Below, in pieces: positions 8,203-55,680 of a stretch of DNA of 60,482 bases. Source of the DNA: an uncultured Cocleimonas sp. GTDB taxonomy: Bacteria; Pseudomonadota; Gammaproteobacteria; Thiotrichales; Thiotrichaceae. Under the pieces are notes generated by a model. The model saw only the letters and a list, made by a program, of their open reading frames with translations, had not been told where the DNA came from and did not search any database. Both the position numbers and the translations under genes were made by a program. Position 1 is the first letter of the stretch. Each line of letters starts with the position of its first letter. The stretch is taken from contig NZ_CANLZW010000030.1 in NCBI RefSeq assembly GCF_947495625.1, forward strand, positions 1 through 60,482, read 5' to 3'.

Positions 8203-8391
8203 GGGTGCCTACCAAGATATCGCAAAGTGTACATTGACCTTGAACCAGTAAGGTTCAAGTGGGAGTCTTTAAAAGCTTATTAGGCTTACCGCCGTAGCAG
8301 TCATGCTCACAAAACTTTCTCTAACCCCCGGAGTTTGTAATTAGGCTCAAGGGACTACCCGCACACTTTCCGAATACCACAGAGGACACCC
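8203..8391 (-). ncRNA. ssrS: 6S RNA (SsrS)
   Basis: The minus strand holds the conserved landmarks of gammaproteobacterial 6S RNA in order: GTAGTCCCTTGAGCC in the 5' half, GTGAGCATGACTGCT near the apical side, AAGCCTAATAAGCTTTTAAA, then CTTGAACC...GGTTCAAGG in the 3' half. The ends GGGTGTC (8385-8391) and GGCACCC (8203-8209) pair to close the long rod. The length of about 189 nt is typical. 6S RNA mimics an open promoter and sequesters sigma-70 holoenzyme in stationary phase. In many relatives ssrS sits between zapA and fau/ygfA; here it is convergent with the SPOR gene and neither partner is present. Confidence 0.9.
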
Positions 8392-12571: not shown

Positions 12572-13825
12572 TTAAGGCTTTGGAGCTTTAAAAACGGCTA
12601 ATGCTTTACTAGCATTAATAAGGCCTTCACCATACTCATCGTCTCTTCCAGGCTTACCTAGATCAACAGCTGTTTTGGTAAGCGCTGAGTTTAGATTATT
12701 ATTACTCTTCTGCGAAAGCAGGAGGGCAACGATTCCACTAACATGCGCTGAAGAAATTGAAGTACCAGTCGCTAATTTATATTTACCCTCAGGGGCAATC
12801 GTTAATATATTTACGCCAGGTGCTGAGTAATCTATAAAACGACCTTTATCAGCCATATTGAATAATTTCTTATTCTCATCAACTGCGGTAGCTCCGATCA
12901 CTCCCGGAATTAGGGCTGGGTATATTGTACTACCCCAATTTCCACCATTTCCGGCAGCGGCAACAACAACAATACCTTTTGCGACCGCTTTTCTAACCAT
13001 CTTTTCTACAATAGAATCTTTGCCGCCAGTAAAACTTAAATTGATGACATCTACATCATGCTGGATACAAGCATCAATAGCCTTTGCAACATCAGCTGAA
13101 GAACCTTTTAACACTGAAGGATGATTCTTTTCAGCTTTAAAAGCACCAATGGAATATAGCTTTGCCTTAGGCGCTATACCTATATGTGGATTTTGACTGA
13201 CTAATACACCCGCAACAGATGTTCCATGAAGCAAAGCTTCCTGGTTTTTTATATCAACTTCAAATAAGTCTTTTGTTTCAATATGAGCATTAGATAACGA
13301 TGGGTGGAAAATATCGATTGGAGTATCAACCATGCAAATGGTTGTGCCTTTGCCTTTGGTAGTTTCGTGTACGTAACTAACACCCGTCTCATACATCGAA
13401 TAAGCATTTTTATAGGATGCTGAAGCAGTTTTGAAAATATTGTTAGTCTCAGCGTTTACACTTTTTTCTTTTTTGTTTATTGATGCACTGAGATTTAAAG
13501 GATCTTGGCCATTAGTTTTAGCGACAAGCATCCCTGTTTTAACTGAAGCAAGAACCGTACTACTTGCAGGATTTAAATTATACTTTTGAGTAATATTCTT
13601 AACTTTTGAAATATCTTCAGTTGCATACAACAATACAACTTCATCTTTAATATAATTTGATCTTCTTGGTTTTTTTACTATTTTTGGTTCATAGACAAAA
13701 TCAAAATACAATGGCTCTTTGTTTTCGTCATCCAAAGCATATTCATCGGCTTGAACTGCGCCAATAGCAAGGCTGCAAATAGCAGCACTACTTAAAATAG
13801 ATAATTTAATATGCTTCACCGGCAA
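12572..13825 (-). CDS. Exported subtilisin-like (S8) serine protease
   Basis: 417 residues. A signal peptide (about 1-26, ending VQA) and a propeptide-like region (DEVVLLYATEDIS onward, about 60-130) precede the catalytic domain. The triad is intact: D167 in MVDTPID, H200 in LLHGTSVAG, and S356 in GTSIS; oxyanion N293 is in AAAGNGG. The start overlaps the anti-sigma gene by 20 bases; TTG at 13825 or GTG at 13819 are the candidate start codons. It is the third gene of an ECF sigma/anti-sigma/protease operon, so it may be an effector of the sigma regulon or a protease that processes the regulator. Its length and composition suggest secretion or a periplasmic location. Confidence 0.88.
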   Translation of the reverse strand: MPVKHIKLSILSSAAICSLAIGAVQADEYALDDENKEPLYFDFVYEPKIVKKPRRSNYIKDEVVLLYATEDISKVKNITQKYNLNPASSTVLASVKTGMLVAKTNGQDPLNLSASINKKEKSVNAETNNIFKTASASYKNAYSMYETGVSYVHETTKGKGTTICMVDTPIDIFHPSLSNAHIETKDLFEVDIKNQEALLHGTSVAGVLVSQNPHIGIAPKAKLYSIGAFKAEKNHPSVLKGSSADVAKAIDACIQHDVDVINLSFTGGKDSIVEKMVRKAVAKGIVVVAAAGNGGNWGSTIYPALIPGVIGATAVDENKKLFNMADKGRFIDYSAPGVNILTIAPEGKYKLATGTSISSAHVSGIVALLLSQKSNNNLNSALTKTAVDLGKPGRDDEYGEGLINASKALAVFKAPKP

Positions 13826-14531
13826 ACCATATCAAGTCTTTGTTAGAAGATAGAGAAGATAATACTTCTTTTATCTGGGCATTATTCAACTTTTGATTAA
13901 AACTAATTTGGTACATGCCTTCCTTACCTGGAACAGACTCAACTTTCTTAAGCTTTCCTTTAAGCAAAGGGAGTGACTGTAACGAATCCATTGAACCATT
14001 AGTACCTACAAGCAAAATGGTAGTTGATTTATCGTTGACGACTTCCGCAGATTTTGCAGCTGCTGGTGTAAACTCACTATCTGCTGTAAACAAAGGAGCT
14101 ACAAAAGCCATCATTACTGATAAAGATATTACTAATAAAGCAACACTAGCAAAACGTGCATACTCAGTCACACCAAACGTGGCTGGCACCCATACTGAAA
14201 TAGCACTTTTAATTTTATCTACGAAACTTTGATTTTCATTAGTTGAAATACTTGATGGTGTTTCGACTGAAATATTGTCGATCTGCTTGAAAACATTTTC
14301 AAGTCTAGATTCTGGTGACGCAAGCGTTGATAAACCTATTAATGATTTATCCTCTGTCATTAGATTAAAAACGTTACGTTCTTCCTCTACGAGTGATTCA
14401 AGCACACTATTAGACTGTAATACTTCTTTAAAGTAAGCATTATCTTCAGAAGAAAGCTGTCCAGTTACAAACCAAGGTAGTAACTCTAGCGCCCTTTCCG
14501 GGATTTCATTATTCTTAGTATCAATATTCAT
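13806..14531 (-). CDS. Transmembrane anti-sigma factor
   Basis: 241 residues. The cytoplasmic N-terminus has the ALELLPWFVTGQLSSEDNAY pattern typical of proteobacterial anti-sigma domains, but without the Cys/His zinc residues of ZAS proteins. A single transmembrane helix (about residues 125-150, ASVALLVISLSVMMAFVAPLF) leads to a periplasmic domain. The gene overlaps the sigma gene by 11 bases upstream and the protease gene by 20 bases downstream, so the three are tightly coupled. The periplasmic tail ends in an alternating beta/alpha module that resembles the C-terminal part of other anti-sigma proteins. The cue sensed is unknown. Confidence 0.8.
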   Translation of the reverse strand: MNIDTKNNEIPERALELLPWFVTGQLSSEDNAYFKEVLQSNSVLESLVEEERNVFNLMTEDKSLIGLSTLASPESRLENVFKQIDNISVETPSSISTNENQSFVDKIKSAISVWVPATFGVTEYARFASVALLVISLSVMMAFVAPLFTADSEFTPAAAKSAEVVNDKSTTILLVGTNGSMDSLQSLPLLKGKLKKVESVPGKEGMYQISFNQKLNNAQIKEVLSSLSSNKDLIWFAGEAY

Positions 14532-15126
14532 GGTCTAAAAGATCTGTATTTGAAAGAAGTGATTTCAAGTGCTTTCTTGCGTAGAACATCCGAGTTTTAA
14601 CGGTATTTTCAGAGATATCTAACATCACTGAAATATCTTTTATAGACAATTCACGATAGTAAACTAATTCTATAACTTCTCTATGTTTCTCGCTAAGCTT
14701 TGCTAAATTGTCGACTATTTCCTGGTCTCTCTCTGAAATAATCACTTCTTGTTCTGGTAATAGATCTGTGTCCTCTATATTTAGTTGTTCAAAATCATCA
14801 TCCTGCAATAACTCTTTGTTCTTCCTTAAATAACCGATCATCCTAAAACGTGCGATCGAATGTATCCAGGTAGATGGTTGTGAAAGTCCTGAAAAGCTAC
14901 CAGCTGATTTCCATACTTCAATAAGTGCTTCATCGGCAATATCCGCAGCCAATGCAACATCATATTTCAACATACGACTACAAAATTTAATAAGCCTTGG
15001 TTGGTAGCTTATATATAACTCTGTAAATGCGTCACGATCACCTTCAGATATCTTTTTTAATAACTCGGTATCACGTATCGTCTTTTCTTCAACTGTTTGC
15101 TTATTGTTCTTCACAACTGCGTCCAT
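14521..15126 (-). CDS. ECF-type RNA polymerase sigma factor
   Basis: 201 residues. Sigma-2 region around residues 30-95 (AFTELYISYQPRLIKFCSRML, then ADEALIEVWKSAGSFSG). Sigma-4 region around 130-190 (LAKLSEKHREVIELVYYRELSIKDI, ending in SENTVKTRMFYARKHL). There is no sigma-3 domain, as expected for ECF factors. It is the first gene of the sigma/anti-sigma/subtilase operon. Shine-Dalgarno is not evident. The regulon cannot be read from this window, although an autoregulatory promoter just upstream of 15126 would be normal. Confidence 0.92.
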   Translation of the reverse strand: MDAVVKNNKQTVEEKTIRDTELLKKISEGDRDAFTELYISYQPRLIKFCSRMLKYDVALAADIADEALIEVWKSAGSFSGLSQPSTWIHSIARFRMIGYLRKNKELLQDDDFEQLNIEDTDLLPEQEVIISERDQEIVDNLAKLSEKHREVIELVYYRELSIKDISVMLDISENTVKTRMFYARKHLKSLLSNTDLLDHEY

Positions 15127-15199
15127 TGATTCTGTAGTTTCGACTAAATAAAATGTTCAAAATAATTTATTTTATCCAAAATGATAAAAAAAAGACAAT

Positions 15200-15227
15200 T
15201 TAACACAAATAAATGAACCTTTATTAA
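15200..15227 (+). promoter_or_regulatory. Candidate promoter of a structured RNA
   Basis: -35 TTAACA (15200-15205), 16-base spacer, -10 TATTAA (15222-15227), predicted start near 15234. It lies immediately ahead of the structured RNA candidate and about 220 bases upstream of gshB. Confidence 0.45.
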
Positions 15228-15233
15228 ATGAAT

Positions 15234-15378
15234 TGCCACAGAGCATGTGTGAGACGGTTAAGTTGGGCTTGATCAAAGGGGATTTGTAGACCAACCATAT
15301 TCACGAGCAAAATCTAGCGGTTTGCTCTGTACCGACTCCCTCGCAACTTTGGGCGGACTTTATGTCCGCCTTTTTTTT
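15234..15378 (+). ncRNA. Structured RNA candidate ending in a terminator (sRNA or gshB leader)
   Basis: No protein is encoded here, but the sequence folds well by eye. A closing stem GAGACGGT (15251-15258) with ACCGACTC (15331-15338), one A-A mismatch, encloses two hairpins. The first is GTTGG (15262-15266) with CCAAC (15291-15295). The second is GAGCAAA (15305-15311) with TTTGCTC (15321-15327). A strong intrinsic terminator follows. This is the form of either an independent small RNA or a three-way-junction leader that attenuates gshB. I do not recognise the family. Confidence 0.55.
15352..15378 (+). terminator. Strong intrinsic terminator ahead of gshB
   Basis: Perfect stem GGCGGAC/GTCCGCC (15352-15358 and 15364-15370) with loop TTTAT, followed by eight T. 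It ends a transcript that begins upstream of gshB, since no rightward coding gene precedes it. Confidence 0.88.
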
Positions 15379-15451: not shown

Positions 15452-16417
15452 ATGCAAAAACAAATCAGCTTAGGGGTCGTCATGGACCCTATTCAATCAA
15501 TAAATATTAAAAAAGATAGCTCTTTCGCAATGATGCTCGAAGCACAACGAAGAGGTTACTCTATATATTATATTACCCAGAAAGACTTATATGTTAAAGA
15601 TGGTATAGCTTTTGCCAATATGTCTAAGGTTAAGGTCACTGATAATCCTGATTCCTGGTATGAATTAGAAGAATCCAGTGACAGACCGTTACATGAACTA
15701 TCCTGCATAATAATGAGAAAAGATCCTCCATTTGATATGGAGTACATTTATTCCACCTATATTCTAGAATTGGCTGAACAAAAAGGATGCTTAGTCGTCA
15801 ACAAACCTTCTAGTATACGAACCGCTAATGAAAAACTTTTTACTGCCTGGTTTCCAGAATTTTCCCCCGAAACACTTGTTACCAGAGATATTCAGCGGAT
15901 CAAAGCATTCCATGAGCAGCTTAAACGAATTGTTGTAAAACCCCTTGATGGTATGGGTGGTTCAATGGTATTCCAAATTCAGGAAGGTGATGCCAATAGA
16001 AGTGTCATTCTAGAAACAATAACAAATAACGGCACTCAAACCGTGATGGCTCAACGCTTTCTTCCAGAATTCAAAAATGGGGATAAAAGAATATTAGTCA
16101 TTAATGGAAAACCATTTCCTCATGGATTAGCAAGAATACCTGCGAAAGGTGAAAGTCGAGGTAATTTAGCGGCTGGTGCCAGCTATGAAGGCGTAGACCT
16201 TACCGAAAGAGAATTCGAGATTTGTAATGCAATAGGACCAAAACTGAAAGAAATGGGCCTCATATTCGTAGGGTTAGATGTCATTGGAGACTATGTTACT
16301 GAAATCAATGTCACCAGTCCTACCTGCATTCGCGAGTTAGACACAATCTATTCGGCAAATATATCTGGCTTATTAATGGATGAAATTGAAATTAGTCTTA
16401 AAGAGAATTTACAATGA
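15452..16417 (+). CDS. gshB: Glutathione synthetase GshB
   Basis: 321 residues from the ATG at 15452. That start gives the family's usual N-terminus, LGVVMDPIQSINIKKDSSFA; an in-frame ATG at 15419 would add 11 residues not found in relatives. It joins gamma-glutamylcysteine and glycine with ATP (ATP-grasp fold). Signatures are KKDSSFAMMLEAQRRG, IIMRKDPPFDMEYIYSTYIL, VVKPLDGMGGSMVF and the C-terminal VTEINVTSPT. Its stop overlaps the OsmC-type gene (ATGA). It may be controlled by the structured, terminator-bearing region just upstream. Confidence 0.97.
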   Translation: MQKQISLGVVMDPIQSINIKKDSSFAMMLEAQRRGYSIYYITQKDLYVKDGIAFANMSKVKVTDNPDSWYELEESSDRPLHELSCIIMRKDPPFDMEYIYSTYILELAEQKGCLVVNKPSSIRTANEKLFTAWFPEFSPETLVTRDIQRIKAFHEQLKRIVVKPLDGMGGSMVFQIQEGDANRSVILETITNNGTQTVMAQRFLPEFKNGDKRILVINGKPFPHGLARIPAKGESRGNLAAGASYEGVDLTEREFEICNAIGPKLKEMGLIFVGLDVIGDYVTEINVTSPTCIRELDTIYSANISGLLMDEIEISLKENLQ

Positions 16418-33998: not shown

Positions 33999-34600
33999 TA
34001 AGCTCTCCTTAGATTGTTTTAGCTTTAAATCAATATTAATCAGATTAACAAAATAGTGTCGATAATATATTTCTGTATAGCCTCGAGTTACATTGAATGC
34101 TTAAGCTATATAGAAATGTATTATTTAACTGCGTCTCGGTTTTAACTAGCCTGTTATTGAGAATTAAGCCATATAAAAAGAGACAAAAATCCTGAGTTGT
34201 AAATTTATTGAAAAGACAGATAACACATTCTGTTGCAATTCATTTATAAACTAAACTAAATATTACCTACTTCTTATATAAGCATTACTTATATATTTGG
34301 GGCTTACTAAAATTAAATTTAGACTCCTTTTCTTAGTCAATACTCAAACTTTTGGATCCACATTTATTAAAAAAGGATCGCTATGGTTTTGTATTAGAAA
34401 CTAAATAATCCTTATTATTAAAGCATTTACTATACTCAGCAAAGTAGGGGGACGGATTATAAGTGGCACATATTGTGATCGACTTAGACTAACTGAGCAA
34501 CCTCTAATCAGAGGTATTATTAGGTTCTTTAAGCGGTACTTGCTTAATCATAAAGGGTACTAGAAATAGTTTTATTTTTACGATAGAATACTGCCCCCTT
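33999..34600. other. Long intergenic region between divergent tkt and the metK riboswitch
   Basis: About 600 AT-rich bases with no gene. It should hold the tkt promoter on the left and the metK promoter on the right; a -10-like TAGAAT at 34584-34589 may serve metK. Visible items are a G5 remnant of the dispersed repeat (AAAGTAGGGGGAC at 34441-34453) and a small hairpin CCTCTAATCAGAGG at 34501-34514. No recognised RNA family besides the riboswitch that follows. Confidence 0.5.
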
Positions 34601-34705
34601 GCTTGAGGAGCGTTGCGATCCGATATTTTTTTCTAAAATATTAGACTAGGCTCAAGCTAATTAAACAGTCCGTAATGGTTGTTTGATGAATATGCAACGA
34701 CGCTC
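34601..34705 (+). promoter_or_regulatory. SAH riboswitch upstream of metK
   Basis: The core agrees with the S-adenosylhomocysteine riboswitch: GAGGAGCGTTGC, later AGGCTC, then GCAACGACGCTC. P1 is the perfect 7-bp stem GCTTGAG (34601-34607) with CTCAAGC (34651-34657). P2 is capped by ATATTTT/AAAATAT. The pseudoknot strand GAGCG+TTGC (34608-34616) pairs with GCAA and CGCTC (34694-34705), with a small hairpin between. The metK Shine-Dalgarno AAGGAG starts 12 bases later. The class normally turns genes on at high SAH. It is best known ahead of ahcY and metF/metH; here it sits before metK. Confidence 0.88.
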
Positions 34706-34730
34706 AGCTAATATTTAAGGAGAACTTAAT

Positions 34731-54600: not shown

Positions 54601-55680
54601 ACGTGCACTCCATAGACAACTGTAGGGTACTTCGCCTACTGGAGCAGCATCAAGCTCGTTGTAATTTGTTGAATCTTGCGAGCCCGCAGCACCAAACATA
54701 TCAGTTAAGTAGAGATCGCTGGTGTTATCAACACCAAGATAAGCGGCAACTTCTTCACGAGGAAACTCACTACTCCAGACCGGGTTACCCGAAGAACAAA
54801 ATTTACTATGCCAGGCGACCAGAACCTTATTACCTGCCACTGCGTGGAAGACATTAGGTACGTCACCAGGGTAGTCAGTAATCAGTGTGTTGCCACCAGT
54901 ATTAGGGCCGACACACTCCTCGCTTGAGCCTTCGACTTCCAAAGCAGGCCCGAAAACACCATCGACTCCTGCTTGAATGAAACAGGGATCATCGGACAGC
55001 CTACGCTCTTTCTCGAATTCTCCCGTTTTTTGGGATCTGACTGTAAACAGATCATCCTTGGTAACGGCATTGCGGATGGTGACTTGCTCACGTTTATCCG
55101 TCTCTGTATCACCGTGGACATGAAGCTTACCACCATTGTTTTTGGCGTCCCATGAAACCTCTTCGAGTGTCGGGCCAGCAGGATCAAACTCAATCACACT
55201 GCCTTCACCTTCGGCAACACCAGGATCCTGCAATGGAGTTGAAACAGCAAAAGAACTTTTATCTGCAGAGTTGGACAGATTGGTATTTTTCCAGGTTTCG
55301 CCATCATCTAAACTCACCGCAACAAACGCATCACGTCGACCGTGACCAGAGAAACCTGAAGCCTCAGGGTTCTCAAAACCAACAACCGGGCCGTAAACGT
55401 ATGCATTAATCAGGGGCTTGGCCTTGGTCTCGGTTTTAACCAACACTTCATCAATGTTTTTGTACTCAATCGGCACTAGTTCACCAGCCGCATTCTGGCT
55501 TGGCACATGAAAGTTCATCATTTTAATAAAGGCGTGTTCACCTTCGGGTTCCGGGTTTTCGGTATTTCCGGGTGAACTGGATACATTCCTTACCAGTCGT
55601 TCACCATCATCAGCATAAGCATTGAATGTGCTTAAACTTAGAGCAGTGAGAACTGTTGATAGAATAATTCTATTTTTCAT
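51634..55680 (-). CDS. Very large exported protein, choice-of-anchor/sialidase-like beta architecture
   Basis: 1348 residues. A signal peptide ends near NAYA. The mature protein is Asp/Gly/Asn/Pro-rich with many cysteines and blocks such as SLDDGETWKNTNLS and SFDGGLTWGTTPTS (Asp-box-like), which are typical of sialidase-type beta-propellers. It contains calcium-type Asp-rich loops (DSNKDGTMNAGD, DSDGDGVVDDAW). It resembles proteins called 'choice-of-anchor O' in gammaproteobacteria, but I cannot confirm this by search. There is no C-terminal sorting motif; the end, SSQTGDPDPEN, is short. Its G+C is visibly higher than neighbouring genes. A palindrome lies in the 5' region. Monocistronic. Confidence 0.8.
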   Translation of the reverse strand: MKNRIILSTVLTALSLSTFNAYADDGERLVRNVSSSPGNTENPEPEGEHAFIKMMNFHVPSQNAAGELVPIEYKNIDEVLVKTETKAKPLINAYVYGPVVGFENPEASGFSGHGRRDAFVAVSLDDGETWKNTNLSNSADKSSFAVSTPLQDPGVAEGEGSVIEFDPAGPTLEEVSWDAKNNGGKLHVHGDTETDKREQVTIRNAVTKDDLFTVRSQKTGEFEKERRLSDDPCFIQAGVDGVFGPALEVEGSSEECVGPNTGGNTLITDYPGDVPNVFHAVAGNKVLVAWHSKFCSSGNPVWSSEFPREEVAAYLGVDNTSDLYLTDMFGAAGSQDSTNYNELDAAPVGEVPYSCLWSARGVMREDPVNEGKSQMVWFQAERLTSGARDVNRVETSCVAGAGCAITWQEDPEGVRPGEGEGPGTGWSGATTASKTDIWYSFVEWEDFDIVDNDGEPLPLADNGLEEVFDTNRPVPYVPMMSAVRLTNNDRCTFPVDPEDASFCNNSLAAPYGIINQCVGSVEVPFGNAGNLNPVCVVDSNKDGTMNAGDMPNLANNAASRPRLNLQPRDSDGDGVVDDAWVVIVSEEDKGLGRYGFINTEEWELGNLEDTAEETCIDPPQQPDEETGCQKADIGKNVFWTSFNLGSPNTSAGVGVEYSLVSNVLSQGAQLNQPEVNWRTGTYYPPMSTEQMWDFSNDSVDLNYLIFNTEIARRTSMMSQPLSKALSGNGLVAMPLWKQGIVNQGGPADISTRRFVVNTGSGETCPIEVDADVPSVDSARYFLLPNGKGRIELQVDGLDGDLTTQVRVNNAVTDDKIVQRFYDADDAWTESTEDFLFRIAVGPGSTRPVPCSIQLADVDGSLEFGPWIAVENAPADCSGPIPPACDEEVTTMAAVDERTENPYSANNMVCAWYDGEGGEHQGVKYFTDGSNPYYPYGLCMSAPINLSARTPYKCEASGEADGSCPGVSDMTCVDDAAFGQLCSSENNPEDNKTYDKLVSWYECPGWNGANISGDAVQNPATCGTEPDSAMLMSNMDDASWYNPLEVSKAHRGYLDGNHIMMIYAWSPNWKLNKVGNDRYELYTRRSFDGGLTWGTTPTSFTASNGLTYSGSGTTTCETMRDADSINSTHMCTAYAAGVPEQSRNVSQLKSMKNTILDPRYTAAGGIPPKGVTDPGNIEWGTFEAINPTDILNPSRNFVVFEDGDNTTVEFGEAEPLNLAYGRAERFGDHFTVWSEIDTGVSDPAADCYPSNAHGDPDVAWAAGTGFCNEFDTLEGFKDALSEEASITASAGGDFLYGVWGQFNVDSETGEFIDGDSMFRRVMYLDDYISPDNAYTLPGSSQTGDPDPEN

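Follow-up and report, generated by a model that had tools for sequence, protein, structure and literature searches.

The stretch at positions 15234–15378 of the analyzed DNA most probably constitutes the small RNA (sRNA) arm of a stress response governed by an extracytoplasmic function (ECF) sigma factor, acting in trans through the 11-mer CUCCCUCGCAA. The window, i.e. the whole stretch of DNA under analysis, comprises 60,482 nt of an uncultured Cocleimonas sp. (contig NZ_CANLZW010000030.1). Comparison of related genomes shows that a promoter motif, the 11-mer (hereafter the seed) and a terminator are conserved, and that they are inherited together with the sigma gene. From these patterns we infer transcription of the RNA, its dependence on the sigma factor, Hfq binding, base pairing and repression.

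The stretch is located between a leftward operon and the rightward gshB-osmC genes. The operon (minus strand) contains (i) a gene encoding an ECF sigma factor of 201 aa (14521–15126), identified by matches to Pfam Sigma70_r2 and r4 and NCBIfam sigma70-ECF, (ii) a gene for a probable anti-sigma factor of 241 aa (13806–14531), whose role is suggested by the gene order and a hydrophobic segment, and (iii) a subtilase (peptidase S8) gene (12572–13825), recognized by a domain match. The 241-aa protein has no match in Pfam or NCBIfam; a single hydrophobic segment was recognized by eye, and its gene overlaps the end of the sigma gene. A subtilase gene also adjoins the sigma gene in loci of genera g2, g4 and g5 and in genome G031 of g3 (the genus groups are defined below). 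The gshB gene (15452–16417, plus strand), for which the fit to a glutathione synthase model places the start at the twelfth codon of the ORF as listed, is regarded here as a downstream neighbor outside the unit.

As originally stated, the stretch is not accounted for by any gene. One ORF of 14 codons begins with an ATG at 15245, at the predicted start of the RNA, and the possibility that it encodes a small protein was rejected, since Cocleimonas flava, a member of the same genus, has ATA in place of the start codon (by eye). A 40-codon ORF of the minus strand (15172–15294) also overlaps the stretch. The original prediction did not recognize an RNA family, and in agreement with this no Rfam 15 family, riboswitches included, matches within the stretch at the gathering score. 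The Rfam matches of the window (tRNA, 6S RNA and SAH riboswitch) all lie outside it, the 6S RNA at 8205–8388 (minus strand) and the SAH riboswitch, above the gathering score, at 34599–34712 (plus strand).

Upstream of the RNA, on the plus strand, a −35 element TGAACC (15214–15219) is followed, after 16 nucleotides, by a −10 element CCAC (15236–15239). The 5′ end of the RNA was placed at the seventh base past the −10 element, which, together with the terminator, predicts an sRNA of approximately 133 nt (15246–15378). Position 15234, at which the RNA had been thought to start, thus lies inside the promoter. All 48 sRNA-bearing genomes outside genus g8 have the motif TGAAC[CT]-N16/17-NAC upstream of the seed (47/47 parsed loci, plus L095, which was read separately), compared with 1.65% of shuffled upstream regions. 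Its spacing is identical in 45 of the 47 loci; in L003 and L010, the spacer lacks one base. Almost all relatives have CGAC, CTAC or CCAC as the −10 element, and L003, L004 and L005 have TTAC or ACAC. Judged by this pattern, the sRNA promoter looks ECF-type. A scan for sigma-70 promoters revealed no plus-strand site that would start an RNA near 15246; one 9-of-12 site (15126–15154) could give rise to a longer transcript, its start lying some 85 bases upstream.

A similar motif (TGAACA at 15159–15154 and CTAC at 15137–15134, minus strand) precedes the divergent sigma gene. With the looser pattern TGAAC-N16/18-NAC, such a motif was found before the sigma gene in 21 of 47 loci (the g4 locus is outside this set), namely in 11/11 loci of g1, 7/7 of g7, 3/4 linked loci of g3 and 0/24 of g2 and g5. 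In many g1 and g7 relatives its spacing to the ATG is similar to that in the window (15126–15159, minus strand). Since this promoter ends 7 nt before the ATG, the sigma mRNA may be leaderless.

The distribution of the sRNA was analyzed with a covariance model of 46 positions, run over 63 genomes of the family Thiotrichaceae grouped as genera g1–g8; the order-level sample consisted of the same 63 genomes. The 3′ core of the RNA (seed plus terminator) was detected in 56 of them, the seed, promoter and neighbors being read in one locus per genome. Because of the kinship among these genomes and the incompleteness of several, the counts cannot be treated as independent. By genus, the sRNA is present in 11/12 genomes of g1, 16/16 of g2, 5/6 of g3, 1/1 of g4, 8/9 of g5, 0/3 of g6, 7/7 of g7 and 8/9 of g8. 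A raw tally of 59/63 was set aside because it includes matches to the terminator only. The low-scoring g4 copy (E 0.0018) was retained on the strength of its seed, its promoter and its location. Five other family matches (L094, L096, L099, L100 and L101) were discarded, as the seed is missing from them (by eye). A nucleotide search of 57 genomes detected the 3′ end in 23, including the genome of origin, the match often extending just from the seed to the terminator. The closest relative of the window sRNA (96% across the RNA) is found in G003. In G007, a second exact seed string (L122; C113, 15597–15607) occurs right after a TATAAT-like box and is not followed by a terminator stem; it may be due to chance or represent a degenerate second RNA.

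An exact 34-base pattern yielded 17 loci among 84,980 species, titled Cocleimonas or Leucothrix (9), Thiotrichaceae bacterium (7) and Proteobacteria bacterium (1). This pattern is insensitive, as it gave 17 loci although the sRNA is carried by 56 genomes of the family. With the covariance model, no copy with the seed was found outside the family among 369 genomes of the class; three matches in this sample were rejected as terminators without the seed. Weaker relatives may exist outside the family, since the cut-off of the class scan also missed two sRNA-bearing genomes of the family (G014 and G015).

The sRNA and the sigma gene are inherited together. Outside g8, both are present in 48 genomes and both are absent from six (G006, G057, G016, G021, G027 and G071, with a completeness of 69–97%); no genome has one without the other. 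In 47 of the 48 the sigma gene is divergent from and adjacent to the sRNA; in G014, for example, the sRNA copy lies next to the sigma gene of that genome. The exception is G031, where the sigma gene is located on a different contig and the sRNA has kept the promoter motif; mis-binning is possible in this case, because the genome is a draft. No sigma match at E ≤ 1e-30 was found outside the family in the 369 class genomes.

The pattern in genus g8 is different. Eight of its nine genomes lack this sigma gene, and the only match, in G062, is a distant relative (38%) in its own, unlinked operon; the sRNA is nevertheless present in 8/9. In these eight loci (L102–L104 and L138–L142, all from MAGs) the ECF motif is absent (0/8; only 127 bases of upstream sequence are available for L139), the seed is exact (8/8), and a different upstream block, starting with TTGAYA or TAGACA, is shared by all (by eye). 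A promoter motif inherited along with the sigma gene is a feature of the ECF/sigma-E-dependent class of trans-acting sRNAs, and it is seen here (48/48 genomes outside g8). Comparison lends good support to the original prediction of an independent sRNA that has a promoter and a terminator of its own.

In the window, the seed (15336–15346, plus strand) is followed by CUUU and then by an intrinsic terminator with a U tail (15351–15378, plus strand), a possible Hfq site; a gene encoding Hfq is present in the same genome. The strong terminator noted originally was confirmed, with a stem at 15351–15371 followed by T8. Within 4 kb, six terminator-like sites were detected against 2.2 expected, and two of the six are the sRNA terminator in two registers. 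The 11-mer is exact in 52 of the 56 genomes carrying the sRNA (51 of 55 parsed loci, plus L095, read separately), and the four deviating seeds are CUCUCUCGCAA, UUCCCUCGCAA and two copies shorter by one base. Across 18 relatives of several genera, 96.8% of the cells of the terminator stem are paired and 11 cells are changed on both sides, a level attained in 0/500 shuffles; three pairs show a both-side change, which is reached in 131/500 shuffles. The part between the promoter and the seed measures 27–139 nt and bears no likeness from one genus to another (47 RNAs; L095 is not in the set), with predicted RNAs outside the genus of the window being as short as 71 nt and, in most of g2, about 85 nt long. 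The mean unpaired probability in the 47 RNAs is 0.72 for the seed versus 0.52 for the 5′ part, and the seed is predicted to be open in most RNAs from other genera. What is conserved between genera is one pyrimidine-rich box adjoining the terminator, with no aptamer-like core. The near-invariant seed, the compensating terminator stem and the variable 5′ part form a pattern expected from an sRNA that acts by base pairing and not from an aptamer.

The fold was examined more closely within the genus of the window. The fold energy is by itself weak evidence, being modestly better than chance (z = −1.96 and 8/200 shuffles as good for 15234–15378; z = −2.09 and 9/200 for 15246–15378). Two internal hairpins had been predicted, and both appear in the lowest-energy fold of the plus strand: hairpin 1 at 15262–15295, with a GGGGA whose GGG lies in the loop and GA in the stem, and the genus-specific hairpin 2 at 15305–15327. 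In an alignment of 11 congeners (four rows of which, L005, L008, L009 and L012, align poorly in the middle of the RNA), 96.6% of the terminator stem is paired, compared with 80.2% of hairpin 2 (both-side changes in 7/8 pairs), 88.6% of the inner stem of hairpin 1, 63.6% and 37.0% of its two outer stems, and 65–71% of the closing helices. On this alignment, hairpin 2 and the inner stem of hairpin 1 are retained, and the outer stems of hairpin 1 and the closing helices are weaker. The closing stem described originally has to be divided: its outer CAGAG/CUUUG part is probably not in the RNA, because GCCAC (15235–15239) holds the −10-like element, while an inner closing helix, joining the 5′ end to the seed, is possible in the modeled RNA.

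Pairing of the seed within the RNA is also suggested by other folds. In the lowest-energy folds from the predicted start, part of the seed pairs with the 5′ end in 9 of the 11 congeners (by eye), and the unpaired probability of the seed in this genus ranges from 0.13 to 0.73. The GGGGA of hairpin 1, present in 9/11 congeners, is complementary to the UCCCU of the seed, and the consensus fold pairs these two elements, with neither hairpin 1 nor hairpin 2 present. Covariation cannot decide on this pairing, since the seed hardly varies. A tentative and rather doubtful interpretation is that the RNAs of the Cocleimonas relatives are self-locked, the 5′ end and GGGGA being set against the seed, and that during evolution the target module has stayed fixed while the transcriptional input and the activity control were exchanged. 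Such an RNA would stay inactive as long as its seed is not freed by processing, by a partner RNA or by Hfq. This interpretation also draws on g8, where the seed was kept and another upstream block is found after the loss of the sigma gene.

Could the stretch instead be a cis-acting leader of gshB-osmC, either a riboswitch or an attenuator, with a thiol or glutathione as the sensed ligand, as was originally considered? The terminator is there, and the RNA lies on the same strand directly 5′ of gshB in 24 of the 56 genomes. The position ahead of gshB is not conserved, as the other 32 have no gshB at this place. Fifteen of the 32 loci were read (one of each neighbor kind was checked against Pfam and the rest were assigned by eye; L095, L097 and L134 are outside these 15), and they contain a co-directional fbp gene in eight cases (g2 and g5), a convergent class I/II aminotransferase gene, probably bioF, in five (g3) and a convergent MFS transporter gene in two (g1). 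Moreover, a TACAAT box is located between the terminator and gshB in 16/16 loci of g1 and g7 (1/8 in g8), which points to a distinct promoter for gshB. A linear seed makes up the conserved part, with a 5′ domain that differs between genera. The leader was therefore rejected on genomic context, and we consider it extremely improbable.

A further alternative is that the conserved box is merely a piece of a longer terminator, or the last segment of an ECF-driven leader, with no function in trans. The strongest conservation does lie on and beside the terminator, and our searches found no target. Terminators can, however, dispense with CUCCCUCGCAA, and this box stays nearly constant as the stem undergoes compensatory change; in addition, the next gene is convergent in g3 and in two g1 genomes, so that there is no mRNA to lead. 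We regard this explanation as unlikely. The RNA might also be a sponge or decoy that titrates another RNA or a protein, e.g. CsrA through GGGGA, instead of pairing with mRNAs. The GGGGA of hairpin 1 in 9/11 congeners would suit this role, the seed could pair with G-rich RNAs, and a precedent is provided by CrfA, described in PMC12559287 as a sponge of alpha-r8 RNAs. The hairpin-1 element is nevertheless seen in the genus of the window alone, the RNAs of other genera being as short as noted above, and a sponge seems very improbable. An sRNA that pairs in trans through its seed is the reading that we prefer.

Several searches for its targets were performed. The full 11-base complement of the seed was found in G000 and G003 solely within the sRNA itself; eight other genomes yielded six more complement sites, in four of them, and none lies within 100 bases before a long ORF. 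ATG-anchored patterns did not exceed the control in G000 and G003. The pattern GCGAGGG-N2-14-ATG is 2–5 times more common than its reversed control in G076 (130/28), G035 (85/39) and G022 (57/24), is also more frequent in G011 (22/12) and G026 (48/30), and shows no excess in G000 (14/20), G003 (17/16) and G028 (32/37). The seed paired no better than shuffled seeds with the starts of OMP_b-brl genes (30 loci), nor, in the median, with those of the sigma, anti-sigma, subtilase and gshB genes (0.45–0.72). Single starts among these neighbor genes rank well, the sigma start of the window being equaled by 2/60 shuffles. Among the 68 ORFs of at least 100 codons in the window, four have starts that 0/60 shuffled seeds match as well; as about one is expected, this result is a lead only. 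The lead is a gene of the window at 55680 (minus strand); its product, 1000 aa or longer, begins with a segment resembling a signal peptide, and a GAGGGA before the ATG allows a 6-base pairing with the seed.

The regulon of the sigma factor was also searched for. The ECF motif with CGAC showed no genome-wide excess over the reversed control in nine genomes; 20 of the 58 places in the motif listing were read. In four g2 genomes, TGAACC-N16-CGAC occurs ahead of a BON-LysM gene in three (L177, L183 and L187), a Sel1-repeat gene in three (L178, L184 and L188) and an Lcl_C gene in two (L179 and L189), the domains having been assigned by Pfam on the G035 copies. These genes are possible members of the sigma regulon in g2, and the ECF response may concern the envelope.

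MicA and RybB pair through their 5′ ends. The sRNA described here differs from MicA, RybB and the Fox RNAs in having another seed, placed beside the terminator, another sigma factor, and a gene divergent from the sigma operon. No OMP target was seen for it among the OMP_b-brl starts of the 30 loci. The article PMC11005410 lists as sigma-E-dependent MicA and RybB of E. coli, VrrA/MicV of Vibrio and FoxI/FoxJ of Fusobacterium. According to the same text, FoxI, FoxJ and rpoE share a promoter motif, as do the sRNA and the sigma gene here, and the Fox RNAs are likewise short, with a conserved pyrimidine-rich seed, in their case a cytosine stretch. The alpha-r8 RNAs (MmgR, SisA-D), as presented in PMC12559287 and PMC7143759, also carry a single-stranded, anti-Shine-Dalgarno-like CUCCCU before a Rho-independent terminator; their 10-mer is UUUCCUCCCU, compared with (N)CUCCCUCGCAA here, and they belong to Alphaproteobacteria and to other regulators, unlike the Thiotrichaceae sRNA. 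The article PMC8307010 describes SorX (RF02784) and CcsR of Rhodobacter as controlled by stress sigma factors, as we propose here, and as derived from mRNA 3′ UTRs, in contrast to an RNA with its own promoter motif. Alpha-r14 NfeR1 likewise has an anti-SD motif, CCUCCUCCC (PMC10746234).

Tests of whether the new RNA belongs to alpha-r8 or SorX were negative. The best sub-threshold Rfam matches (Bp1_781, SorX, suhB and SorY) rest on the terminator, SorX and suhB also on CUCCCU. The covariance models of alpha-r8/suhB (RF00519) and SorX gave 21.9 and 22.6 bits against gathering scores of 41 and 46.6, respectively. The alpha-r8 10-mer was not found in the RNA, which has CUCCCU alone in common with it, the upstream bases being variable. 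No sRNA work on Thiothrix, Leucothrix, Cocleimonas or Thiotrichales was recognized among the literature matches listed, and the sole listed match to three 12-base strings (the seed plus the next base) concerned a Streptomyces toxin-antitoxin system. By analogy, it appears to be a new regulatory sRNA that would work like MicA/RybB/FoxI and the alpha-r8 RNAs.

In the mechanism that we propose, release of the sigma factor by the anti-sigma factor would activate the holoenzyme, which would transcribe its own operon leftward. From the facing TGAACC-N16-CNAC promoter, the same holoenzyme would produce a short RNA rightward, ending at the strong terminator. The CUCCCUCGCAA box just before the terminator would base-pair with target mRNAs at ribosome-binding sites that are purine-rich (GAGGGA-like), and the sRNA would repress these mRNAs, probably with Hfq bound to the U-tail.

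The family provides a natural experiment: where the sigma gene is present the motif has been kept in 48/48 genomes (including one in which sRNA and sigma gene are unlinked), and where it is missing the motif is gone and the seed is kept, in seven genomes and in one more that has only a distant sigma relative. The near-invariant 11-base box would offer a direct route to the targets, and, if the proposed mechanism is correct, an sRNA arm would be added to an ECF response of the Thiotrichaceae sulfur bacteria.
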